NCBI RefSeq assembly: GCF_900104795.1 | Contig: NZ_FNTG01000001.1 | Coordinates: 1,426,001-1,490,000 of the forward strand | Direction of reading: 5' to 3' | Source of the DNA: Burkholderia sp. WP9 | GTDB lineage: Bacteria > Pseudomonadota > Gammaproteobacteria > Burkholderiales > Burkholderiaceae | DNA length: 64,000 nt | In this document: positions 16,510 through 28,165 of the stretch, in pieces | Layout of the letters: each line of letters starts with the position of its first letter | How positions within the stretch are numbered: the first letter of the stretch is position 1 | Program-made: the position numbers and the translations under genes | The notes under the pieces: model-generated | What the model saw: only the letters and a program-made list of their open reading frames with translations | What the model was told of the DNA's origin: nothing | Databases searched by the model: none

Positions 16510-17184
16510 TCACCCCGTCGACGTCTTCTTCACGAATGCGTTCACCACGGCTTCCAGCTCTTTTGTGATCGTCGTCATTACGCCGGCCACCACGGCGAAC
16601 TCGCGGCCGGTCACTTGTGCACGGCTCGCCACGATCTGTCCGTTGAACGACACGATGTGCGCTTCTTTCGCGATCCCCTTGATCCGCTCGATCAGTTGCT
16701 GCTGCTCCTTCTTCTGCAAGCGCGCTATGCGCCGGCTTTCCTGCTCGTAGACGGCGGTGACACCGTGCAGTTGTGTCAGCAACGGATCCACGGAGTCGAC
16801 CAACGCCTTCAGCGCATCGTCAGCGCGCGGTGACGCGCGCCCGATCGCCTCTAACGCAGCCGAAGCCAGCGCGATAAAGTCCGCGATCTTCGCGGCCACT
16901 TTCCCGCTGCCGTGAAACGCTTCGCGCAGCGCCGGAGAAAACAGGCCGGGCAAGCCATCGCGGCCTTGCGTCAGCACCGTATGACTGTCGGCAAAGGTGT
17001 TTAACGTGTCGCGCGCGATCGCCAGCGCGCCGTCGAACTGCTGGAACGCCAGCATCGCTTTCAACACGATGCGCTGCGAGAGCATCCGTTGACGTCCCGC
17101 AAGATTGATCAACGAGCTCAACACCTCGCTGGAGACGTCCGTGTCGGACGTGTGTGCGTGAACCCGTTCTGTCGTGATGCTCAT
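16510..17184 (-). CDS. Soluble PilJ-domain protein with chemoreceptor-tip-like C-terminus
   Basis: 224 residues with no membrane segment or signal peptide. Residues about 20-125 fit the type IV pili methyl-accepting chemotaxis transducer N-terminal (PilJ) domain, with INLAGRQRMLSQRIV at its start; this motif also occurs in nitrate/nitrite sensors such as NarX. The rest is mostly helical, and residues about 175-205 (SFNGQIVASR, then GREFAVVAGVM) look like a worn form of the chemoreceptor hairpin tip (ALNAAIEAARAGE, GRGFAVVA). It follows the nitrate transporter gene by 99 bases on the same strand and is probably co-transcribed with it. A role in sensing nitrate or nitrite is inferred from context and from the PilJ motif only. 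Confidence 0.8.
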   Translation of the reverse strand: MSITTERVHAHTSDTDVSSEVLSSLINLAGRQRMLSQRIVLKAMLAFQQFDGALAIARDTLNTFADSHTVLTQGRDGLPGLFSPALREAFHGSGKVAAKIADFIALASAALEAIGRASPRADDALKALVDSVDPLLTQLHGVTAVYEQESRRIARLQKKEQQQLIERIKGIAKEAHIVSFNGQIVASRAQVTGREFAVVAGVMTTITKELEAVVNAFVKKTSTG

Positions 17185-17283: not shown

Positions 17284-18651
17284 TTACTCCGTTGCGTGCG
17301 CGTGCATCACACCGGAGTGCATCGACCACGCCATCCACGGACGGCGCAGCGCGACGATCGCAAGGAACGCGCATGCCGCCAGCGCGCCGAACGTCGCAAA
17401 GCCCATCTGATAGCTGCCCGTGCTTTCCTTGGCGATACCCATGACGACCGGCAGATAGAATCCGCCGATGCCGCCTGCCGCGCCGACAATGCCCGACATC
17501 AGACCCGTACGGCCGGCCCAGCGATGCGGCACCAGCTGGAAGGTCGCACCGTTGCCGAGGCCAAAGGCCACATACAGGCACAACAGCAGTGTGATGCCGC
17601 CCGCCATCGAAGGCATGGCAGCGGCGAACACGAAGTCGCACAACGAGATGATAGCGAGCAGGAAGGTCAGCGCGCGCACGCCGGACACCTTGTCGGCGAT
17701 CAGGCCGCCGAGCGGTCGCACCATTGCGCCGGTCGCGGCGAGCAATGCCATGAAGAGACCCGCGTCGATCTTCGAGAGCTGATAGAGGTTGGTCAACAGC
17801 AGCGAAACATATGAGGACATGCCGACGAAACCGCCGAACGTAATGCTGTACACCAGCATGATCGCCCACGTGTCACGCTCGGCCAGCACCGCGCGATAGC
17901 GCTTGGGCAGCACCGCGATGGCCAGCAATGCGCCGATCACCGGCAACAGCAGCACACCGGTCTTGCCGGAGCCGAACATGCCGGCTTCGACCAGCAGCAC
18001 CAGCACGATCAATCCGGCGAGCGTCACCGCGAAGCTGCCGAATGCGCGCAGCACGCTACCCGATTTCACGCCCGAATCATTGGCCCAGAAATAGAGCGTG
18101 ATCGCCGCGATCGCGAGCAACGGAAGTGCGCCGCCGGCGGCCATCTGCCAGCCGTAATGCGTGGCCAGCTGCGGGAACAGGAAGCCGTCGAGCACCGCGC
18201 CGATATTGCCGGCCGCGGCGAGGCCGAGCACGAGACCTTGCACCTTCGGCGGATAGTTGCTGCCGGCCATCGGCAGCGCCACAGCGAAACTTGCGCCGCC
18301 GACGCCGAGGAACACGCCGAGCACCAGCAGGACCGTGTATGACGGCACGGAAGGCATCAACGGCAATACGATGGTCGGCACCGCCGACAACAGCACGCCC
18401 ATCAATGCAATGCGCTTGCCGTGAGCGGATTGATACAGATTACCCAGCGTAACCCGTAGAATCGCGGCCGACAGCACCGGCACCGCGACCAGCAGTCCCT
18501 GTTGCGCGGGCGTCATCGCTATGCTCTTGCTGATGAACGGCGCGAGCGGTCCATACAGGACCCAGACGGTAAAGCCGGTGTCGAAATAGAGGAAACACGC
18601 CACCAGCGCGCGCCAGTCCCCACTCTTTAGGGAGCTCATCACGTTTTTCAT
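17284..18651 (-). CDS. Nitrate/nitrite transporter (NNP family, NarK/NasA type)
   Basis: 455 residues, twelve predicted membrane segments. The NNP signature region is present around residues 105-150 (GVGGASFAVALPMAG, then YPPKVQGLVLGLAAAGNIGA), and a second glycine-rich signature occurs late (SGIVGAAGGIGGFYLP). These families move nitrate by proton symport or nitrate/nitrite exchange. The ATG at 18651 follows GAGGA with good spacing. It lies about 200 bases after the nitrate reductase gene and has its own sigma-54-type promoter, so it can be expressed under nitrogen limitation separately from the nirBD-nasA transcript. Confidence 0.92.
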   Translation of the reverse strand: MKNVMSSLKSGDWRALVACFLYFDTGFTVWVLYGPLAPFISKSIAMTPAQQGLLVAVPVLSAAILRVTLGNLYQSAHGKRIALMGVLLSAVPTIVLPLMPSVPSYTVLLVLGVFLGVGGASFAVALPMAGSNYPPKVQGLVLGLAAAGNIGAVLDGFLFPQLATHYGWQMAAGGALPLLAIAAITLYFWANDSGVKSGSVLRAFGSFAVTLAGLIVLVLLVEAGMFGSGKTGVLLLPVIGALLAIAVLPKRYRAVLAERDTWAIMLVYSITFGGFVGMSSYVSLLLTNLYQLSKIDAGLFMALLAATGAMVRPLGGLIADKVSGVRALTFLLAIISLCDFVFAAAMPSMAGGITLLLCLYVAFGLGNGATFQLVPHRWAGRTGLMSGIVGAAGGIGGFYLPVVMGIAKESTGSYQMGFATFGALAACAFLAIVALRRPWMAWSMHSGVMHAHATE

Positions 18652-18851: not shown

Positions 18852-21800
18852 TCAATAAACGTCGCGTGCGTAGCGTTTTTCCTGCGCGAGGCGGCTCACG
18901 TAGTCGAGCGCTTTCTCATCGCTCATGCCGCCGTGCCGGGCGACCACTTCCTTGAGCGCCGCATCGACGTCTTTCGCCATCCGGTTCGCGTCGCCGCACA
19001 CGTAGAAATGCGCACCGTCTTCGAGCCATGCCCACAATTGCGCACCCTGCTCGCGCATGCGGTCCTGCACGTAGACCTTGTCCGCCTGATCGCGCGAGAA
19101 CGCGACGTCGAGACGGGTCAGCACGCCGCTGTCGCGCATCGATTCAAGTTCGTCGCGGTAGTAGAAATCGGAGGCGGCATGCTGCTCGCCAAAGAACAGC
19201 CAGTTGCGTCCCGTGTCGCCACGTGCACGCCGCTCGTGCAAGAAGCCGCGAAACGGTGCAACGCCAGTACCGGGCCCGACCATGATCATCGGAGTTTCCG
19301 AACCATGAGGAGGACGAAAGTGTGCGGACTTCTGCACGAACACGGGAACGTTGACATCGCCCGCGCGATCCGCGAGAAAAGTAGACGACACGCCTTTGCG
19401 ATGACGGCGCCCGTTGCTGTAGCGCACGGCGGCAACCGTCAGATGAACTTCGCCGGCATGGGCCTTCGGGCTCGAGGCGATCGAGTAAAGACGCGGTTGC
19501 AGACGCTTGAGCATGCCGGTCAATTCGGTTGCCGTGAGGCGCACCGGAAATTCGTGCAGCACGTCGGCGATCTGCTGGCCCCACAACCACTGTTTGAGGT
19601 CGGCCTTGCGCTCGGGCGCCAGCAGATCGCGTAGCGCGCCGTTATTGCTGCGTGCGGCGACAAACGCGAGCAGATCCGAATTCGGTCGCGCGATCTCGTA
19701 GTGCCTGGCGAGTGCATCGGCGAGACGCATTTCGCCCGCGCCCGCCACATTCACGGCGGCATCCGCGCTCAAACCGCTCAGCCCGATCAATTCGTCGACC
19801 AGTTCGGGACAGTTGCTTGGCCACACGCCAAGCGCATCTCCTGCTTCGTATTCGAGTCCCGAGTCGCCCGTGTGCAGCGAGAAGTAACGCGTGTCTTTCG
19901 CCGCGCCCTGCTTGTTCAGGCGCAGATTGCTCACGAGCCGCGATGCGGCGGGCCGCGTCTTGCTCGGCACCGTGCCCGGCACCACCGCGTTGACCATGCC
20001 GCCGGGCGGCACCGCGTACAGCGCGGCGTCCTCTTCCTTGATGCGCACGATGATGCGATCGAGCCACGCATCCGCGCTCTCCTGATACTCGCTGTCGCAA
20101 TCGACGCGGTCCATCAGCCGCAGCGCGCCTTGCTCGGCGAGCCGCTGGTCGAGCCGACGGCCATGTCCGCAAAACTGGTCGTAGTTGCGGTCACCGAGCG
20201 CGAGCACCGCGAAGCGCACGCCGTCGAGCCGAGGCGCGCCCTCGCCGTTCAATTGCGTCCAGAAACTTTGCGCGTTGTCGGGCGGATCGCCGTCGCCGAA
20301 AGTGCTTGTCATCAGCAGCACGTATTGCGCCTTGGCAAGCATTGAGGCCGGATAGTCCGCCATACACGACGTGCGGATTTCGAAGCCCGACTCCATCAAA
20401 CGAGTCGCATAGCCTTCGGTCAGCGACTCGGTGTTGCCGGTTTGCGAGGCCCACAGCAAGGTGACCTTGGGACGCGCGCGCACAATGCGCACGCCCGATA
20501 CTTGCGATGCTTGCGATGCCTGCGCATGCGAGGCCGCAAGCGGAGCGGCGGCAATCGTCGCACTGCGGCTATAAAGACCGGCTAGCAAGCCGTCCACATA
20601 CAGGCGGCTAGTGGTATCGAACGGAGCGTTGCCGGGCAGAACCGGCACGCTGTCGACGCCCTGCGCTTCCGCTGAACGCAGGCCGCCAACGAAGCCGGCC
20701 AGATAGACCCGCTGCTGATCGTTGAACGAAGGTGCGAGCGTCGGCGGCAACTGCAACAGGCCGGTGAGTGCATTGATACGGGGCATATCCAGATCCTCGG
20801 CGCTTGCCGATACGGTGTTCTCCTGCGCCGCGCTCACGGCTACGGCAACGGATGCCTCGGCGAGCACCGTATCGTCGTCATTCAGAAGCGGCTCCGTGCT
20901 GTCGGCCACAACGGGACTCAACGCGACCGCACAAAACTTGAGTTCGGGCTGCTGCGAGACCGGGTCGATCGCATCGCTCGTTACGGCGTTGATGCACAGG
21001 TCGTCGCCGAATACATCGTTCCAGTGCATCGGCGCAAAGCAGTTGCCCGCGCTCACGCGCTCGGTCACGACAGCCGGCAACACCGCGCGGCCGCGGCGCG
21101 AGCGAATCTCCACCGGGTCTTTTGCCTTGATGCCGAGCGTGGCGGCATCTTCCGGATGAATCTCGACAAACGGACCGGGGTTCAGCTTGTTGAGCATCGC
21201 GACCTTGCCGGTCTTGGTCATCGTGTGCCATTGATGCTGCAAGCGGCCGGTATTCAGCACGATCGGAAACTCACGATCCGGCAATTCGGCCGGCGCCGCG
21301 TAAGCACGCGCGAAAAACATTGCCTTGCCGCTCGCGGTCGGAAAGACGAGCCGCGGACGGCTGCCGTCCGGCAGTTCCTTGAGTGTCTGGCTCACTCCGT
21401 TGTTGAGGTAGCGAACCGGATTGCGCTCGGCGCAATCGTCCGATGCAAGCGGCCATTGCAACGGCGTTTCTTTCAGACGACGATGGCTCGCGCCGCGCAG
21501 GTCATAGCCGGTTTTGGGATTCGACGCGCGGGTGATTTCCGCGAAAACTTCCTCGGCGCTCGCGTAAGTGAAAGCCTCCGCGTAACCCATTTCGCAGGCA
21601 ATGCGCGCGATGATCTGCCAGTCCGGCAGCGCAGCGCCCGGCGGCTCAATCCCTTTTTGCATCAGCGTGACGTTGCGCTCGGAGTTGATCATCACGCCTT
21701 CGGCTTCGGCCCACAGCGCCCCGGGCAATAGCACGTCGGCGTATCGGTTGGTCTCCGTGTCGAGGAAAGCGTCTTGCGCGATCACGAGTTGCGCCGCGCG

Positions 21801-23057
21801 CAAGCCGTCGATCGCGTTCTGACGATTCGCCACGCTCGCCACCGGGTTCGTGCAGATGATCCAGCACGCCTTGATCTCGCCCGCCGCCATGCGTGTGAAC
21901 ATGTCGATCGTGCCGTTGCCCACTTCCGGTTTGAGCGTGCCCTTCCGAATGCGCCACAGGTCTTCGATAAACGCGCGGTCTTCTTCGACTAGCACCGAAC
22001 GCTGGCCCGGCAATCCCGGTCCCATGTAGCCCATTTCGCGGCCGCCCATCGCATTGGGCTGGCCAGTCAACGAAAACGGTCCGCTGCCGCGGCGGCAAAT
22101 CTTGCCCGTTGCCAGATGCAGATTGCAGATCGCGTTGGTGTGCCACGTGCCGTGCGTACTCTGATTCAGGCCCATGGTCCAGCAGCTGATCCACTCGCTC
22201 GCGGTGCCGATCATCTGCGCGGCCGCACGCAGATCGTCGAGTGCGATGCCGGTGATCTGCGCGACCTTCTCCGGCGTGTAGTCGGCGAGAAACGCAGGCA
22301 TCGCGTCCCACCCCTCGGTAGCGTCGGCGATGAAAGCGGCATCCGTATGGCCGTTTTCGTGCAGCAGATGCAGCAAGCCGTTGAGCAACGCCAGATCGGT
22401 GCCCGGCTTGATCTGCATAAAAAGATCGGCCTTCTCCGCCGTCGTGTTGCGGCGCGGATCGACGACGATCAGTTTGGCGCCGGCCTTCACGCGATCCAGC
22501 ATGCGCAGGAACAGAATCGGGTGACAGTCGGCCATATTCGCGCCGATCACGAAGAACAGGTCGGCATGATCGATGTCTTCGTACGATCCCGGCGGGCCGT
22601 CCGCACCGAGCGACAGTTTGTAGCCGCTGCCCGCGCTCGCCATGCACAGGCGCGAATTCGATTCGATGTTGTTGGTGCCGACGAAGCCTTTGGCGAGCTT
22701 GTTGACGAGGTACTGCGCCTCGATCGACATCTGACCGGACACGTAAAACGACAGCGCATCCGGTCCATGTTCGTCGAGCAGGCCGCGCAAACGCCCCGCT
22801 GTGGTGCTGATCGCCTGCGCCATGGGCAGCGGCGCCGGGTCCTGGCCACGCGCATGGCGCACGAACGCATCTTCAAGACGCCCGGACTTGCGCAACGCAA
22901 CGTGCGCCGATTGCCCCTTCGTGCACAGCCGGCCGAAGTTGGCCGGATGCTCCTTGTCGCCGGAGATCTTCACGACCTGCCCGTCCTCGACATGCAGCAC
23001 CATGCCGCAGCCAACGCCACAGTAAGGGCACACGGTTTTCACGTTAGTGGAGGACAT
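18852..23057 (-). CDS. nasA: Assimilatory nitrate reductase fused to a CysJ-like flavoprotein (NasA-CysJ)
   Basis: 1401 residues. Residues 1 to about 720 form a molybdopterin nitrate reductase: the [4Fe-4S] cysteines are Cys10, Cys13, Cys17 and Cys45, and Cys138 in SRLCMASAG is the likely molybdenum ligand. After a linker, residues from about 862 form a flavodoxin domain (LLWASQTGNTES), then an FAD-binding domain (RLYSIASS at 1189-1196) and an NADPH-binding domain (PMIMVGPGTGVAP near 1255). The chain therefore carries NADPH-FAD-FMN electron supply and nitrate reduction together in the cytoplasm. This fusion is known in related bacteria. I start at ATG 23057; a GTG at 23072 is possible. It follows nirD by 42 bases and is probably in the nirB transcript. 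Confidence 0.95.
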   Translation of the reverse strand: MSSTNVKTVCPYCGVGCGMVLHVEDGQVVKISGDKEHPANFGRLCTKGQSAHVALRKSGRLEDAFVRHARGQDPAPLPMAQAISTTAGRLRGLLDEHGPDALSFYVSGQMSIEAQYLVNKLAKGFVGTNNIESNSRLCMASAGSGYKLSLGADGPPGSYEDIDHADLFFVIGANMADCHPILFLRMLDRVKAGAKLIVVDPRRNTTAEKADLFMQIKPGTDLALLNGLLHLLHENGHTDAAFIADATEGWDAMPAFLADYTPEKVAQITGIALDDLRAAAQMIGTASEWISCWTMGLNQSTHGTWHTNAICNLHLATGKICRRGSGPFSLTGQPNAMGGREMGYMGPGLPGQRSVLVEEDRAFIEDLWRIRKGTLKPEVGNGTIDMFTRMAAGEIKACWIICTNPVASVANRQNAIDGLRAAQLVIAQDAFLDTETNRYADVLLPGALWAEAEGVMINSERNVTLMQKGIEPPGAALPDWQIIARIACEMGYAEAFTYASAEEVFAEITRASNPKTGYDLRGASHRRLKETPLQWPLASDDCAERNPVRYLNNGVSQTLKELPDGSRPRLVFPTASGKAMFFARAYAAPAELPDREFPIVLNTGRLQHQWHTMTKTGKVAMLNKLNPGPFVEIHPEDAATLGIKAKDPVEIRSRRGRAVLPAVVTERVSAGNCFAPMHWNDVFGDDLCINAVTSDAIDPVSQQPELKFCAVALSPVVADSTEPLLNDDDTVLAEASVAVAVSAAQENTVSASAEDLDMPRINALTGLLQLPPTLAPSFNDQQRVYLAGFVGGLRSAEAQGVDSVPVLPGNAPFDTTSRLYVDGLLAGLYSRSATIAAAPLAASHAQASQASQVSGVRIVRARPKVTLLWASQTGNTESLTEGYATRLMESGFEIRTSCMADYPASMLAKAQYVLLMTSTFGDGDPPDNAQSFWTQLNGEGAPRLDGVRFAVLALGDRNYDQFCGHGRRLDQRLAEQGALRLMDRVDCDSEYQESADAWLDRIIVRIKEEDAALYAVPPGGMVNAVVPGTVPSKTRPAASRLVSNLRLNKQGAAKDTRYFSLHTGDSGLEYEAGDALGVWPSNCPELVDELIGLSGLSADAAVNVAGAGEMRLADALARHYEIARPNSDLLAFVAARSNNGALRDLLAPERKADLKQWLWGQQIADVLHEFPVRLTATELTGMLKRLQPRLYSIASSPKAHAGEVHLTVAAVRYSNGRRHRKGVSSTFLADRAGDVNVPVFVQKSAHFRPPHGSETPMIMVGPGTGVAPFRGFLHERRARGDTGRNWLFFGEQHAASDFYYRDELESMRDSGVLTRLDVAFSRDQADKVYVQDRMREQGAQLWAWLEDGAHFYVCGDANRMAKDVDAALKEVVARHGGMSDEKALDYVSRLAQEKRYARDVY

Positions 23058-23099
23058 GGCGGGCAAGATCACTCGAAAAGGTTGCAGACAATCCGTGGC

Positions 23100-23453
23100 T
23101 CAAACGGCGACCCACACCTGGCCGTTTTCGACTCGCGCGGCGAACGCGCCGACGGAATACGCCGGTGTTTCCAGGCACTCGCCGGTCCGCAGGTCGAAGT
23201 GATGCTTGTAGATCGGCGAAGCGACCACGATGCGCTCGCCGAGGCTGCCGATCAGCCCGCGCGACAGCACCGCCGCCTGCGAGCCGGGGTCGAAGTTGTC
23301 GATGGCGAACACGGTGGCGTCGGCGTCACCGTTGTCAACGTGAAAAACCGCGACCTGCTCGCCGTTGACAAGCGCGCAAACGCCCGTGTTGGGCACGATG
23401 TCGTCGAGCGGGCAAACCGGTGTCCAGGCGCGTGGCAGGCGATCGTTGTTCAT
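23100..23453 (-). CDS. nirD: Nitrite reductase (NADH) small subunit
   Basis: 117 residues with a Rieske-like fold. The region matching the Rieske ligand loops (SPIYKHHFDLRTGECLETP) lacks the cysteine-histidine pairs of a true [2Fe-2S] site, as is normal for NirD. It partners NirB in the cytoplasmic NADH-dependent reduction of nitrite to ammonium. Its ATG overlaps the nirB stop as ATGA, a sign of translational coupling. The preceding sequence is open in this frame but does not look like NirD. Confidence 0.95.
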   Translation of the reverse strand: MNNDRLPRAWTPVCPLDDIVPNTGVCALVNGEQVAVFHVDNGDADATVFAIDNFDPGSQAAVLSRGLIGSLGERIVVASPIYKHHFDLRTGECLETPAYSVGAFAARVENGQVWVAV

Positions 23454-26026
23454 GACGGAAGTCCTCGGTGAAGGGTGCAAATCAATCGGACGGTTTCGAC
23501 GACGACGGGAATCGCGGCGAGCTTCGCGTGGCGCTCCGCGGGCGTGGCCGGCCGGATCTGGCCGCGTTCCTCGACGAAAGCGACGTTGCTGTCGGATTCG
23601 CCGCTGTTGACGAAATGACGGAAGCGCTTGCGCGTTTCGGGATCGGTGACAGCCTTCTTCCATTCGCACTCGTAGGTGTCGACCACGTGCTGCATCTCCG
23701 ACTCGAGTTCGTCCGCCACGCCGAGGCGATCGTTGACAACTACGTCGATCAGATACTCAAGGCCGCCTTCGAGGTTGTCGCGCCACACGCTGGTGCGTTG
23801 CAGACGATCGGCGGTGCGCACGTAAAACATCAGGAAGCGGTCGATGTAGCGCACCAGCGTTTCTTTATCGAGGTCCGAAGCGAGCAGCTCGGCATGGCGC
23901 GGTTTCATGCCGCCGTTGCCGCACACGTAGAGATTCCAGCCCTTCTCGGTCGCGATGATGCCGACATCCTTGCCCTGTGCTTCCGCGCACTCGCGCGTGC
24001 AGCCCGACACGCCGAACTTGATCTTGTGCGGCGTGCGCAGGCCCTTGTAGCGGTTCTCGATCTCGACCGCGAGGCCCACCGAATCGCCTACGCCATAACG
24101 GCACCACGTCGAGCCGACGCACGACTTCACGGTGCGCAGCGACTTGCCGTAGGCGTGGCCCGATTCGAAACCGGCGGCGATCAGCTCTTCCCAGATGAGC
24201 GGCAATTGTTCGACGCGCGCGCCGAACAGATCGACGCGCTGACCGCCGGTGATCTTCGTATAGAGGCCGTATTTCTTCGCCACCTGCCCGACCGCGATCA
24301 AACCGTCGGGGGTCACTTCACCGCCGGCCATGCGCGGCACGACCGAATAGGTGCCGTCGCGTTGAATGTTGGCGAGGTAGTAGTCGTTGGTGTCCTGCAA
24401 CGACGCGTGCTCCTTCTTCAGCACGAACTCGTTCCAGCACGACGCGAGAACGCTCGCCACCACTGGCTTGCAGATATCGCAGCCTAGACCATGACCGTGC
24501 TTCGCGAGCAGTTCGCCGAAGCTGCGCACGCCTTCCACCCGCACGATGTGATACAGCTCCTGGCGCGAATACGGAAAGTGTTCGCAGACGTGATTGTTGA
24601 CCGCGAGACCCTGCTTCTTCATCTCGGCTTTCATCACCTGCGTGACGAGCGGCACGCAGCCACCGCACGAAGTGCCGGCGCTGGTGGCGCATTTGAGTGC
24701 GCCGATGTCCGTCGCGCCCGCGCAGACCGCGGCGCATAGCTCGCCCTTCGAGACGTTGTTGCACGAGCAGATCTGCGCGCCCGCGGGCAACGCCTCCACG
24801 CCGAGCGCGGGCTTCGCGTTGCCGTCCGCCTGCGGCAGGATCAGGAATTCGGGCGACGCCGGCAGCTCGATGCGGTTCAACATCATCTGCAGCAGCGTGC
24901 CGTATTCGCCGGCGTCGCCCACCATCACGCCGCCCAGCAGGTATTTGCCGCACTCCGACACCACCAGCTTCTTGTAGACCTGCTTGCGTTCGTCGCTGAA
25001 CTGGTAGGCGCGGCTGCCCGGCGTATTGCCGTGCGCGTCGCCGATGCTCGCTACGTCCACGCCCATCAGCTTGAGCTTGGTGCTCATGTCGGCGCCGACG
25101 AATTCGGCCGTGCCACCGTGCAATTGCTTCGCCACCGCGCGGGCCATTTCATAACCCGGCGCCACGAGGCCGAACAACTGGCCGTTCCATAGCGCGCATT
25201 CGCCGATCGCATAGATGTGCGGATCGCTCGTGCGGCAGGCGTCATCGATCACGATACCGCCGCGCGGGCCGAGTGTCAGACCGCTCTCGCGCGCCAGATC
25301 GTCACGCGGACGAATGCCCGCCGAGAACACGATCATGTCGGTGTCGAGGTGGCTGCCGTCCGCGAATTGCATGCGGTGCGTGCCGGCCTCGCCGTCCACG
25401 ATCGCCGTGGTGTTCTTTTGCGTGTGCACCGTCACGCCCAGTTCCTCGATCTTGGTGCGCAGCACGCGGCCGCCGCCGTCGTCCACCTGCACGGCCATCA
25501 GACGCGGCGCGAATTCGACCACGTGCGTTTGCAGGCCCATGTCGCGCAGCGCCTTTGCGCATTCGAGACCGAGCAGTCCGCCGCCGACCACCGTGCCCGT
25601 CTTCGAGCGCGCACCGCATTCGCGCATCGCTTCGAGGTCGTCGATAGTTCGGTACACGAAGCAATCCGCGCGTTCACGGCCCTGCACGGGCGGCACGAAC
25701 GGATAGGAACCGGTGGCGAACACGAGCTTGTCATAAGGCAGCGTTTCGCCCGTCGATACCTTCACGGTGCGCGCGTCACGATCGATCGCCACGGCCTTTG
25801 CGTTTAACTTGAGCAACACGTTTTGCCGCTCGAAGAAACCCGGCTCGACCAGCGACAGGTCGTCCGCCGACTTGCCCGAGAAGAACTCGGACATGTGCAC
25901 GCGGTCGTAGGCCGGCCGCGATTCTTCGCTCAGCACCGTGATGTCGAGGCCATGCGCGGCGTCTTGTGCAAGGCACTCGACCAGTTTGTGGCCGACCATC
26001 CCGTGACCGATAACGATGATTTTCAT
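23450..26026 (-). CDS. nirB: Nitrite reductase (NADH) large subunit
   Basis: 858 residues, normal length. In order: an FAD/NAD(P)H module starting at KIIVIGHGMVGHKLVE; a BFD-like [2Fe-2S] region with CSCNNVSKGELC and CGGC; ferredoxin-like half domain; and the siroheme/[4Fe-4S] site with Cys636-x5-Cys642 (CVGSTWC) and Cys676-x3-Cys680 (CTREC). It carries electrons from NADH to siroheme and reduces nitrite to ammonium in the cytoplasm. ATG 26026 begins the family-like sequence. Upstream is a long leader with an ANTAR-type antitermination structure and a sigma-54 promoter, so expression probably needs both nitrogen limitation and nitrate or nitrite. nirD and nasA follow in the same transcript. 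Confidence 0.97.
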   Translation of the reverse strand: MKIIVIGHGMVGHKLVECLAQDAAHGLDITVLSEESRPAYDRVHMSEFFSGKSADDLSLVEPGFFERQNVLLKLNAKAVAIDRDARTVKVSTGETLPYDKLVFATGSYPFVPPVQGRERADCFVYRTIDDLEAMRECGARSKTGTVVGGGLLGLECAKALRDMGLQTHVVEFAPRLMAVQVDDGGGRVLRTKIEELGVTVHTQKNTTAIVDGEAGTHRMQFADGSHLDTDMIVFSAGIRPRDDLARESGLTLGPRGGIVIDDACRTSDPHIYAIGECALWNGQLFGLVAPGYEMARAVAKQLHGGTAEFVGADMSTKLKLMGVDVASIGDAHGNTPGSRAYQFSDERKQVYKKLVVSECGKYLLGGVMVGDAGEYGTLLQMMLNRIELPASPEFLILPQADGNAKPALGVEALPAGAQICSCNNVSKGELCAAVCAGATDIGALKCATSAGTSCGGCVPLVTQVMKAEMKKQGLAVNNHVCEHFPYSRQELYHIVRVEGVRSFGELLAKHGHGLGCDICKPVVASVLASCWNEFVLKKEHASLQDTNDYYLANIQRDGTYSVVPRMAGGEVTPDGLIAVGQVAKKYGLYTKITGGQRVDLFGARVEQLPLIWEELIAAGFESGHAYGKSLRTVKSCVGSTWCRYGVGDSVGLAVEIENRYKGLRTPHKIKFGVSGCTRECAEAQGKDVGIIATEKGWNLYVCGNGGMKPRHAELLASDLDKETLVRYIDRFLMFYVRTADRLQRTSVWRDNLEGGLEYLIDVVVNDRLGVADELESEMQHVVDTYECEWKKAVTDPETRKRFRHFVNSGESDSNVAFVEERGQIRPATPAERHAKLAAIPVVVETVRLICTLHRGLPS

Positions 26027-26093
26027 GACCGCGGTTTCCTCAATGTGCTGGTTGCGAGCGCCGTCGGGCGGCAGGTGGCGAAAGCGATTCCGG

Positions 26094-26150
26094 AAATAAA
26101 AACGGCGTCCCGCGAACCCAGTCGATGACTGAGTTCGGGGGACGCCGTTG
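26094..26150 (-). terminator. Leader terminator (attenuator) of the nirB operon
   Basis: On the minus strand the arms AACGGCGTCC (26149-26140) and GGACGCCGTT (26110-26101) form a long stem, extended inside by CGAAC/GTTCG, and are followed by a T-rich run (TTTTTATTT). It ends 68 bases before the nirB start. Its 5' arm is shared with the P2 hairpin upstream, so the two structures exclude each other. Confidence 0.8.
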
Positions 26151-26210
26151 TCCTGACCTGTGCTGCGGCGAGTACTTTGTGTTGCACTCGCAACGGATCC
26201 ACGTTGATCC
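26140..26210 (-). ncRNA. ANTAR-type antiterminator leader RNA of nirB (P1 and P2 hairpins)
   Basis: On the minus strand P1 is GGATC[AACGTG]GATCC (26210-26195) and P2 is GGAC[AACGGC]GTCC (26153-26140). Both have six-base loops with A at position 1 and G at position 4, the known recognition rule for ANTAR-domain antiterminators such as NasR and NasT. The loop and 3' arm of P2 are the 5' arm of the terminator, so stabilising P2 would prevent termination. P1 begins about six bases after the predicted transcription start. About 41 bases separate P1 and P2, longer than usual, and this spacer can fold a small GTTGC/GCAAC hairpin. Confidence 0.75.
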
Positions 26211-26225
26211 GATGGCAAGCCTTGA

Positions 26226-26241
26226 TGCAAGGCCTGTGCCA
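26226..26241 (-). promoter_or_regulatory. Sigma-54 (-24/-12) promoter for nirB-nirD-nasA
   Basis: On the minus strand this reads TGGCACAGGCCTTGCA, which fits TGGCACG-N4-TTGCA with exact GG-GC spacing. The predicted transcription start is near 26216, directly upstream of hairpin P1 of the leader. Confidence 0.75.
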
Positions 26242-26342
26242 ATTGCACCGAACCGCCTGAAAGACGCCGTGGCTCGGGGCTTCGAGGCAAATGGCACGCG
26301 CGTGCGGCGAACCCGGCGCGCGACACGTTTCGATGCAGCGAA

Positions 26343-26357
26343 GCACACGCATGGTGC
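26343..26357. promoter_or_regulatory. NtrC-type binding site 1
   Basis: GCAC-N7-GTGC (GCAC at 26343-26346, GTGC at 26354-26357), the core of the NtrC consensus TGCAC-N7-GTGCA. It lies between two divergent sigma-54 promoters, about 134 bases from the predicted nirB start. Confidence 0.55.
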
Positions 26358-26387
26358 GACGCAGCACTGTCTACGTGCGCAATCGGG

Positions 26388-26402
26388 GCACGCATGCGGT
26401 GC
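26388..26402. promoter_or_regulatory. NtrC-type binding site 2
   Basis: A second GCAC-N7-GTGC (26388-26391 and 26399-26402), 45 bases centre-to-centre from site 1 and about 100 bases upstream of the predicted cobA transcription start. A tandem pair at this distance is typical of an NtrC enhancer. Confidence 0.55.
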
Positions 26403-26469
26403 GTCACCGTCGGTTTTTTTGGGGGGAAGGCGAGACACGGCAAGGCATTGAACGCACCGTCGCGACGTA

Positions 26470-26485
26470 TGGCGTGATCTTTGCG
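26470..26485 (+). promoter_or_regulatory. Sigma-54 (-24/-12) promoter for the siroheme methyltransferase gene
   Basis: TGGCGTGATCTTTGCG matches TGGCACG-N4-TTGCW in the key GG and GC positions. The predicted transcription start is near 26495, giving a leader of about 220 bases before the start codon at 26714. Confidence 0.65.
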
Positions 26486-26546
26486 TAAGAGTGAACAGGT
26501 CGACGTGGCAACGCAGCCACCATGACCTGCAGTACGAACGAATACC

Positions 26547-26624
26547 GGACGGGCACAACGCTGTGATTCGTCCCACTCGAAGTCGAATACCGATACACCA
26601 GGCAGCAAACGGACAACGGCGTCC
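26547..26624 (+). ncRNA. ANTAR-type antiterminator leader RNA of the siroheme methyltransferase gene
   Basis: P1 is CAC[AACGCT]GTG (26554-26565) closed by an outer GGACG/CGTCC stem (26547-26551 with 26569-26573). P2 is GGAC[AACGGC]GTCC (26611-26624). Both hexaloops have A1 and G4, as ANTAR proteins require. P2 is identical, stem and loop, to P2 of the nirB leader on the opposite strand. Its loop and 3' arm form the 5' arm of the terminator that follows, so P2 and the terminator cannot coexist. Confidence 0.75.
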
Positions 26625-26660
26625 CCTCGTGACCAACACGAGCGGACGCCGTTTTTTATT
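26615..26660 (+). terminator. Leader terminator (attenuator) upstream of the siroheme methyltransferase gene
   Basis: Arms AACGGCGTCC (26615-26624) and GGACGCCGTT (26644-26653) with an inner CTCGTG/CACGAG stem, followed by TTTTATT. It ends 54 bases before ATG 26714, which makes it an attenuator rather than the end of an upstream gene, since no plus-strand gene precedes it. Confidence 0.85.
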
Positions 26661-26713
26661 TGGCTCCGGCAATTCAACTGCCGTTAGCCGACCCACAAGC
26701 GAAGGACACCGCG

Positions 26714-27529
26714 ATGAACACGAACACCGGCAAGGTCACCTTATTGAGCGCAGGCCCGGGCGACCTCGATCTGCTCACGCTGAAAGCCGCAAAAGCGTTG
26801 GCGGCGGCCGACGTCGTGTTGCTGGACGACCTCGCGAATCCGGAGATCGTGACGCTGGCGCCGCAGGCGCGGGTGATTCGCGTCGGCAAGCGCGGCGGCT
26901 GCCGCTCCACGCCGCAAGCGTTTATCGAACGCCTGATGCGGCGCTACGCGCTCAAGGGCTTGCATGTGGTGCGGGTCAAGGGCGGCGAAGCGCTGCTATT
27001 CGGCCGGGCCGGTGAAGAACTCGCGGCACTGCGCGACGCCGACATTTCGGTCGAGATCGTCAACGGCATTTCGTCGGGATTCGCGGCCGCCGCGGGACTG
27101 GGCATTTCGCTCACGCATCGCCGCCACTGCCACGGCGTTACTTTTGTCACCGCACATACGGAGGATCACGGCGAGCCCGACTGGGCCGCATTGGCGGCGA
27201 CCCACACCACGTTGGCAATCTATATGGGGATGCGGCGCATCGAGAGCATCGCGACCGCGTTGCTCGCGAGCCTGCCGGCCGACACCCCGGCAGCCGTCGT
27301 TCAGTGGGCGGGGGGCAGCAACGAGCGGCGCCTCTTGAGCCGTCTCGATCGCATCTCCGTCGATGCGACGAGCGCGAGTTTCGGTAGTCCGGCGGTGATT
27401 CTGGTGGGCAGCGCGATCGGCGAGAGCGTCGAGTGCGCGCGGGCTGCGGACCAGGCACGGCGCGATGAAACAGTGGCCATGCAGATCGACAAGCTGATCG
27501 GGCGAGAGTTCGTTGCACAGGCGGCGTAA
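26714..27529 (+). CDS. cobA: Uroporphyrinogen-III C-methyltransferase (siroheme synthesis)
   Basis: 271 residues, usual for the SUMT family. The S-adenosylmethionine-binding loops are present: SAGPGDLDLLTLKA near residues 12-25, VVRVKGGEALLFGRAGEE, and GISSGFAAAAGLGISLTHR. It methylates uroporphyrinogen III twice to make precorrin-2, the precursor of siroheme, which the neighbouring NirB needs. ATG 26714 was chosen because the family-like sequence begins there and a purine-rich AAGGACACC site precedes it; an in-frame start at 26660 lies inside the leader terminator. Control by a sigma-54 promoter and an ANTAR-type leader matches that of nirB, so cofactor and enzyme would be made together. Confidence 0.95.
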   Translation: MNTNTGKVTLLSAGPGDLDLLTLKAAKALAAADVVLLDDLANPEIVTLAPQARVIRVGKRGGCRSTPQAFIERLMRRYALKGLHVVRVKGGEALLFGRAGEELAALRDADISVEIVNGISSGFAAAAGLGISLTHRRHCHGVTFVTAHTEDHGEPDWAALAATHTTLAIYMGMRRIESIATALLASLPADTPAAVVQWAGGSNERRLLSRLDRISVDATSASFGSPAVILVGSAIGESVECARAADQARRDETVAMQIDKLIGREFVAQAA

Positions 27530-27784: not shown

Positions 27785-28165
27785 ATGGGCCATCAACGAG
27801 CCACACGCCTTCTGATCGCAGACGACGACGCAAATCTGCTGGCCGCTTACGTACTCTTTTTCAGCGCACATGGTTTCGAGATCAGGACCGCGCGCAACGG
27901 CCTCGACGCGCTGGCGCAATACTGCGCCTGGCATCCGGAGGCCGCGTTGCTGGACGTCGAAATGCCGCGCCTGGACGGGCGCGCGGTCGCGCGGCGAATC
28001 CGCTACGTGGGCGACGTGCCCGCGCCCATGCTGGTGGCGGTTACCGGGCTCGAGCGCGACGAGGAAAAGAGCGAGTCGCTGCGTTCGGGCTTCAATCATC
28101 ACTTCGTCAAACCGGTGCCCATGCCGGTCATTCTTGCCGCGTTGAACGGGCGGATCCGCCATTAA
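27785..28165 (+). CDS. Single-domain response regulator receiver protein
   Basis: 126 residues, only a CheY-like receiver. The acidic pocket is IADDD (residues 11-15), the phosphoacceptor is Asp57 in LLDVEMP, and the conserved Thr and Lys follow in VAVTGLE and FVKPV. There is no output domain, so it must act by protein contact or as a phosphate carrier. No histidine kinase lies nearby. A GGGGAAAA ribosome site precedes the ATG. It is separated from cobA by 255 bases with no clear promoter. It lacks an ANTAR domain, so it is not the missing antiterminator for the nitrate leaders. Confidence 0.9.
   Translation: MGHQRATRLLIADDDANLLAAYVLFFSAHGFEIRTARNGLDALAQYCAWHPEAALLDVEMPRLDGRAVARRIRYVGDVPAPMLVAVTGLERDEEKSESLRSGFNHHFVKPVPMPVILAALNGRIRH

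Follow-up and report, generated by a model that had tools for sequence, protein, structure and literature searches.

What controls transcription of nirB in this window (the whole 64,000-nt stretch of DNA analysed here), and which protein would read the RNA that precedes the gene? The first-pass annotation had interpreted the minus-strand leader of nirB as an ANTAR antitermination switch, and our analysis supports that interpretation. We are confident, from comparison of sequences, in a more specific reading: a NalA-type transcription-attenuation leader of the gene run nirB, nirD, nitrate reductase and narK, which NasT would bind in response to nitrate to prevent termination.

The genes downstream of the leader on the minus strand are, in order, nirB, nirD, a nitrate reductase-flavoprotein fusion, a NarK-like transporter and a PilJ-domain protein, and the run from nirB to narK is probably transcribed as a single mRNA (Table 1). 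The name nirD is presumed from the position of the gene. Among the 25 matches listed for the nitrate reductase frame, only NF004859 exceeds its cut-off. The nirB open frame extends upstream across the leader (ORF 23450-26677); a longer NirB was ruled out by family models that align from residue 1-3 at the ATG at 26026. The PilJ-domain protein, downstream of the narK-like gene, is encoded at 16510-17184 (-), and a stand-alone response-regulator receiver domain lies at 27785-28165 (+), downstream of cobA.

Table 1. Features of the nirB and cobA leaders and of the neighbouring genes in the window.
Feature	Position	Strand	Evidence
Sigma-54 -24/-12 promoter TTGGCACAGGCCTTGCA	26226..26242	-	boxes TTGGCAC-N5-TTGCA in sequence
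NtrC-like dyad GCACCA-N4-TGTGC, candidate enhancer	26343..26357	-	3 mismatches to 17-base consensus
P1 hairpin CGGATC[AACGTG]GATCCG	26194..26211	-	sequence, folding, covariation
Spacer hairpin GCGAGUGC/GUACUCGC	26168..26191	-	folding; spacers of relatives also structured
P2 hairpin (antiterminator) GGAC[AACGGC]GTCC	26140..26153	-	sequence, folding, covariance-model match
Intrinsic terminator, 5' arm = P2 loop + P2 3' arm	26094..26149	-	folding; exclusive pairing
nirB, nitrite reductase large subunit, ATG at 26026	23450..26026	-	TIGR02374, 1136 bits (cut-off 578)
nirD, small subunit	23100..23453	-	open frame and position
Assimilatory nitrate reductase fused to CysJ-like flavoprotein domain	18852..23072	-	NF047855, TIGR01931, others
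NarK-like MFS transporter	17284..18651	-	PF07690; TIGR00886 261 bits, under cut-off of 312
Second leader, sigma-54-like box TGGCGTGATCTTTGC, imperfect	26470..26484	+	
Second leader, P1 GTGGC[AACGCA]GCCAC	26505..26520	+	-8.2 kcal/mol, z -2.97
Second leader, P2 GGAC[AACGGC]GTCC	26611..26624	+	covariance-model match
Second leader, terminator	26615..26661	+	26609-26660 folds at -28.8 kcal/mol, z -7.0
cobA, uroporphyrinogen-III C-methyltransferase (siroheme)	26714..27529	+	TIGR01469, 246 bits (cut-off 185)

Reading of the sequence confirmed that P1, P2 and the terminator are present where the first-pass annotation had placed them. Both stems are short, both hexaloops (AACGTG and AACGGC) obey the A1/G4 rule that had been claimed for them, and P2 overlaps an intrinsic terminator, as expected of an ANTAR dual-hairpin target. 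The sigma-54 promoter was also found, with a different distance to P1: the transcript start had been placed about six bases before the hairpin, and we take it to be near 26215, 4-5 bases ahead, assuming the usual sigma-54 geometry. The spacer between P1 and P2 is 41 bases, as had been estimated, if P1 is counted as the five base pairs of the first-pass annotation. A third small hairpin suspected in this spacer is there; it has 8 bp (26168-26191) and folds at -12.8 kcal/mol (z -2.16).

Folded alone, P1 reached -8.3 kcal/mol (z -2.31), a value that 4 of 200 shuffled sequences equalled or bettered. P2 alone (-4.8 kcal/mol, z -0.96) is not exceptional, because 35 of 200 shuffles folded at least as well. 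The terminator, from 26149 to 26094, folds at -40.3 kcal/mol (z -8.96), and none of 200 shuffles matched it. As had been proposed, its 5' arm consists of P2's loop and 3' arm; P2 and the terminator are therefore mutually exclusive. Given only -4.8 kcal/mol for P2 versus -40.3 kcal/mol for its competitor, the terminator should win when P2 is unaided. An ANTAR leader at rest is expected to be in just this terminator-folded state.

This overlap is a constant feature of related leaders. In 88/88 distinct terminator cores the 3' side of P2 still pairs with the 3' arm of the terminator, and 84 of these cores have a T4 tract; by site, the tract is found in 92 of 103 distinct sites and lacking in 11. 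We asked which of our probe genes comes first within 400 nt of 104 sites in the fetched loci, some of which are one place present in two loci. The first gene was cobA at 32 sites, nirB at 16, a narK-like gene at 5 and a nasS-like gene at 4; the other 47 had no probe gene at this distance. At 22 of these 47, nirB lies 1.41-1.47 kb downstream, as would be expected with a transporter gene in between. Half of the 32 cobA sites (16, in loci L046-L067) have nasT behind cobA, 0.77-1.31 kb from P2; the leader there thus also leads into the regulator, and the order leader-cobA-nasT suggests feedback on the regulator.

Within the window, no Rfam family reached its gathering score. The two best weak matches of the leader were RF00625 P11 (29.6 bits, E 1e-4, against a gathering score of 70) and RF03032 narK RNA (17.6 bits against 43.2); with scores below gathering, the leader falls outside both families as Rfam defines them. 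Both models nevertheless include promoter boxes and an ANTAR-like P2 hairpin resembling GACAAAGGCGUC, as here. Among 16 loci with a P11-like pattern, the P11 model passed gathering in 14 (not in L114 and L169) and the narK RNA model in 7; neither did so in four loci of this order. RF00625 matched in 1 of 100 family genomes, under gathering, and a covariance-model scan of genomes of the order gave matches in at least 10 of 250, with 14 candidates scored per genome. In Pseudomonas we counted at least 80 P11-like pattern loci, and among the matches listed the nearest downstream of four probe genes was nirB in 75, cobA in 1 and none in 4; these listed matches included no P. aeruginosa locus. Where distances were available (14 P11-like loci), nirB lay 89-127 nt from P2 in 12; it was 3.2 kb away in L114, and in L113 cobA was 229 nt away. 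From position and motif we infer that P11 and NalA are the same RNA, and the likeness suggests that the Rfam entries for P11 and narK RNA belong with the ANTAR leaders. Our literature search found nothing joining P11, antitermination and nirB.

The match to P11 also raises a different explanation, in which the stretch chiefly encodes a small RNA that acts in trans and ends at a terminator of its own, and another promoter drives nirB. RF00625 is of Rfam type 'Gene', and PMC12080996 treats P11 as a small RNA regulator of the same operon. We consider this explanation improbable. A small RNA would not need the P2 loop and 3' side to serve as the terminator 5' arm, as they do in all 88 distinct cores; the P11-like loci listed mostly have nirB next downstream; and the same design stands elsewhere ahead of cobA and narK-like genes. 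Attenuator and small RNA are in any case mutually compatible roles.

Which protein would read the leader? The first-pass annotation had named an ANTAR-domain gene in this genome as something the switch would require, and there are two, neither of which has a NIT domain. One is NasT (REC-ANTAR), followed directly by the gene of NasS, an NMT1-like (NMT1_2) binding protein; the other is AmiR-like and also stands beside a binding protein (L002, about 55-58 kb). Both pairs are on contig C2 and the window is on C1; with nasTS on another contig, NasT is the presumed reader of this leader.

We compared the presence of the RNA with that of its candidate readers in 200 genomes of the family. A P2-terminator pattern, which requires no P1 and whose hits were inspected in part, was found in 106/200 genomes in its GGAC form and in 42/200 in its GGGC form, 125/200 in union; a backward-read control gave 1/200 in each form's scan. 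NasT was found in at least 134 of the genomes and NasR in at least 10. Each of the 125 pattern genomes has at least one of the two: NasT alone in 117, NasR alone in 6 and both in 2. Among the candidates scored, a regulator without the pattern occurred in 17/200 genomes and neither in 58/200 (Fisher p 2e-35). Restricting the comparison to the 144 genomes with a size of 4 Mb or more, 20 of which are without the pattern, gave 124 with pattern and regulator, 0 with the pattern alone, 15 with a regulator alone and 5 with neither (p 3e-5). Both p values take no account of relatedness or of possession of nirB.

The six NasR-only pattern genomes (G002, G015, G052, G069, G089 and G433) each encode a NIT-ANTAR protein, and none gave a REC-ANTAR match with all ANTAR candidates scored; G002 has an AmiR-like protein besides. 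Two differently built nitrate sensors therefore accompany the same pattern, and these genomes provide a comparison set up by nature that could show whether one RNA is recognised by NasT and NasR alike. A stop breaks the NasR match in two of the ten cases, G023 and G410, and both genomes are without the pattern. In the window's genus 13/22 genomes have the pattern, and 11 of these have it more than once. Of the nine congeners without it, seven (G040, G075, G379, G386, G400, G414 and G426) have NasT with neither pattern form, which a reading based on NasT and this leader leaves unexplained.

The AmiR-like protein, with its neighbouring binding protein, invites the alternative that the leader is an ANTAR target read by this protein and answering to an amide or urea-like ligand. 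This is very unlikely: the downstream genes serve nitrate and nitrite assimilation, nasT stands behind cobA at 16 of the 32 cobA sites in relatives, and every one of the 125 pattern genomes has NasT or NasR.

Single hairpins with an A1/G4 hexaloop are common; the window has 64, against a mean of 75 in random sequence. The whole arrangement, defined as P1, P2, a terminator arm that can pair with P2's loop and 3' arm, and then T4, occurs at 2 places in the window versus 0 in 200 first-order Markov windows. This rule was shaped on the nirB site, and a version with a longer arm missed both window sites.

The first-pass annotation had proposed covariance in related species as a test, and P1 provides it. 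We anchored P1 by the promoter boxes and the AAnG loop alone, without demanding pairing, at sites of the same order with a recognised box and a T4 tract. Of 33 distinct stems, 31, 29, 29 and 32 form pairs 2, 3, 4 and 5 (counted from the loop), and each of these positions shows four to five kinds of pair; the shuffle means were 18, 21, 16 and 19, and none of 2000 shuffles, which ignore relatedness of the stems, reached any of the observed counts. The first pair is C-G in 31/33 stems, and the sixth is weak (21/33 stems, a count attained by 95 of 2000 shuffles). Two wrongly anchored rows, L037 and L038, are counted among the 33. In the Pseudomonas set the anchor caught wrong AAnG sites (14-30 of 54 distinct stems paired per position), and we draw no inference from it. 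Covariation of P2 is little informative because P2 was searched only as GGAC and GGGC. That the site is a plain terminator of an upstream transcript, its hairpins arising by chance, is hardly credible: frequent as single A1/G4 hairpins are and unremarkable as P2 is alone, P1 covariation, the rarity of the arrangement and exclusive pairing in 88/88 cores all speak against it.

Spacers of relatives, drawn from the same kind of site, range from 16 nt (L037 and L038) to 136 (L040). They are structured on average: in 59 distinct spacers of at least 15 nt, with L037 and L038 set aside, the mean z was -1.68 and 20 were below -2. The minimum-energy fold includes an A1/G4 hexaloop hairpin of the spacer's own in 4/59 (L040, L042, L094 and L095). 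A further hairpin of this kind could form in L039, L041, L043 and L045, and one is possible in 15 of 18 listed loci of the Pseudomonas set.

The second place in the window that matched the arrangement rule had escaped the first-pass annotation. It lies on the plus strand (26505-26661), divergent from the nirB leader and ahead of cobA. A covariance model scored it at 26.1 bits (E 2e-4) in an unfiltered search of the window and at 20.9 bits (E 0.45) in the whole genome; the fold of its entire P1-to-P2 stretch is not outstanding (z -1.27). Three other model matches in this genome (18.6-19.7 bits) had no GGAC/GTCC P2 with a terminator and were taken as chance.

The genome has two genes with a sigma-54 DNA-binding domain, and in relatives sigma-54 boxes lie at a comparable distance from P1. 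A canonical box was found within 200 nt in 57 of the 88 sites with enough upstream sequence, and most of the 31 sites without one are cobA-side. Sigma-54 is thus well supported for leaders of the nirB type and only likely for the cobA side. Upstream of the nirB promoter is an NtrC-like dyad, scored against a 17-base consensus. A scan of the window with this consensus gave 43 matches versus 42.3 expected, a chance-level result. The distance from the dyad to the -24 box downstream is 115-117 bases in the window and 10 congeneric loci, together 11 of the 12 regions compared (L084 has none); several regions contain other matches too, and in L004 the second half is AGTGC. NtrC is a candidate activator.

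The closest known counterpart is NalA of Pseudomonas, described in PMC12830290 and PMC3973561 (which cite Romeo 2012 and Nie 2024 for work on NalA and NasS-NasT) as a sigma-54-dependent nirBD leader whose termination is relieved by NasT; these papers also state that c-di-GMP inhibits NasT. Here as there, a sigma-54 promoter lies just upstream (in our case of P1), the leader has a terminator, nirB is the first gene and the genome encodes NasT and NasS; in the Pseudomonas system nitrate or nitrite releases NasT from NasS, and NasT allows read-through. The Pseudomonas cobA is in the nirBD operon, whereas here it is divergent with a leader of its own, and nasTS are on another contig.

Other ANTAR systems are more distant. 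The Klebsiella NasR/nasF leader shares nitrate-responsive ANTAR antitermination, but NasR is a single NIT-ANTAR sensor, unlike both ANTAR proteins here. EutV dual-hairpin targets share two hairpins, A1/G4 hexaloops and a P2 that excludes the terminator, and differ in signal and in the 41-nt spacer with its own hairpin found here (PMC3369931). In Paracoccus denitrificans, NasT bound nasA leader RNA with nitrate in gel shifts (PMC3795266); that operon is a different one, and the likeness lies in the NasT reader. A curation rule for actinobacterial ANTAR RNAs sets the linker at 2-25 nt (PMC8164766), which the 41-nt spacer exceeds; the rule is not generally defining, and PMC3369931 calls linker length variable. 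That paper already counts Burkholderia among the bacteria that have ANTAR targets, and it includes genes of nitrite reductase and of nitrate/nitrite transporters in its list of targets. Our additions are the twin leader of cobA, the exchange of NasT and NasR, the dyad at a fixed distance, the structured spacer and the tie to P11 and narK RNA.

We propose the following mechanism. Under nitrogen shortage, NtrC and sigma-54 would start transcription near 26215. When nitrate and nitrite are lacking, NasS would hold NasT, the terminator would form in the nascent RNA, and transcription would end with release of a leader of about 115-120 nt. When either is present, NasT would be freed and its ANTAR dimer would grip the P1 and P2 loops, which the spacer hairpin probably draws together; the P2 loop and 3' arm would then be kept from the terminator, and polymerase would continue into nirB. 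The divergent leader of like design would place the siroheme gene cobA under NasT as well. Nitrite reduction and siroheme supply would then answer to a single design of nitrate-sensing RNA, and at least nirB would additionally require nitrogen shortage.

A broader reading, less likely than not, is that these leaders, P11 and narK RNA included, form a portable nitrate switch read interchangeably by NasS-NasT or NasR within one family. The divergent pair in the window's genus would then switch enzyme and siroheme cofactor together, the cobA-side leader that runs into nasT in relatives would be feedback, and a third A1/G4 hairpin, where a lineage has one, would allow binding of more than one ANTAR dimer. 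The released leader might act as a P11-like small RNA, in which case P11 abundance in Pseudomonas would report nitrogen shortage in the absence of nitrate. This reading is weakened because many cobA-side leaders have no canonical sigma-54 box. If P11 is simply what termination in such a leader releases, nitrate should lower its abundance; PMC12080996 stresses that P11 expression depends on growth conditions.

The divergent arrangement of cobA and nirB, each with its leader, recurs beyond the window. We found it in nine genomes of the window's genus, the window's own included (loci L003, L004, L011, L031, L076, L077, L078, L080 and L083), and also in L023 and L024. The genome that has the pair in L078 carries two more leaders in L079 (G371, contig C10), the first ahead of a distant narK-like gene, the second ahead of another nirB.
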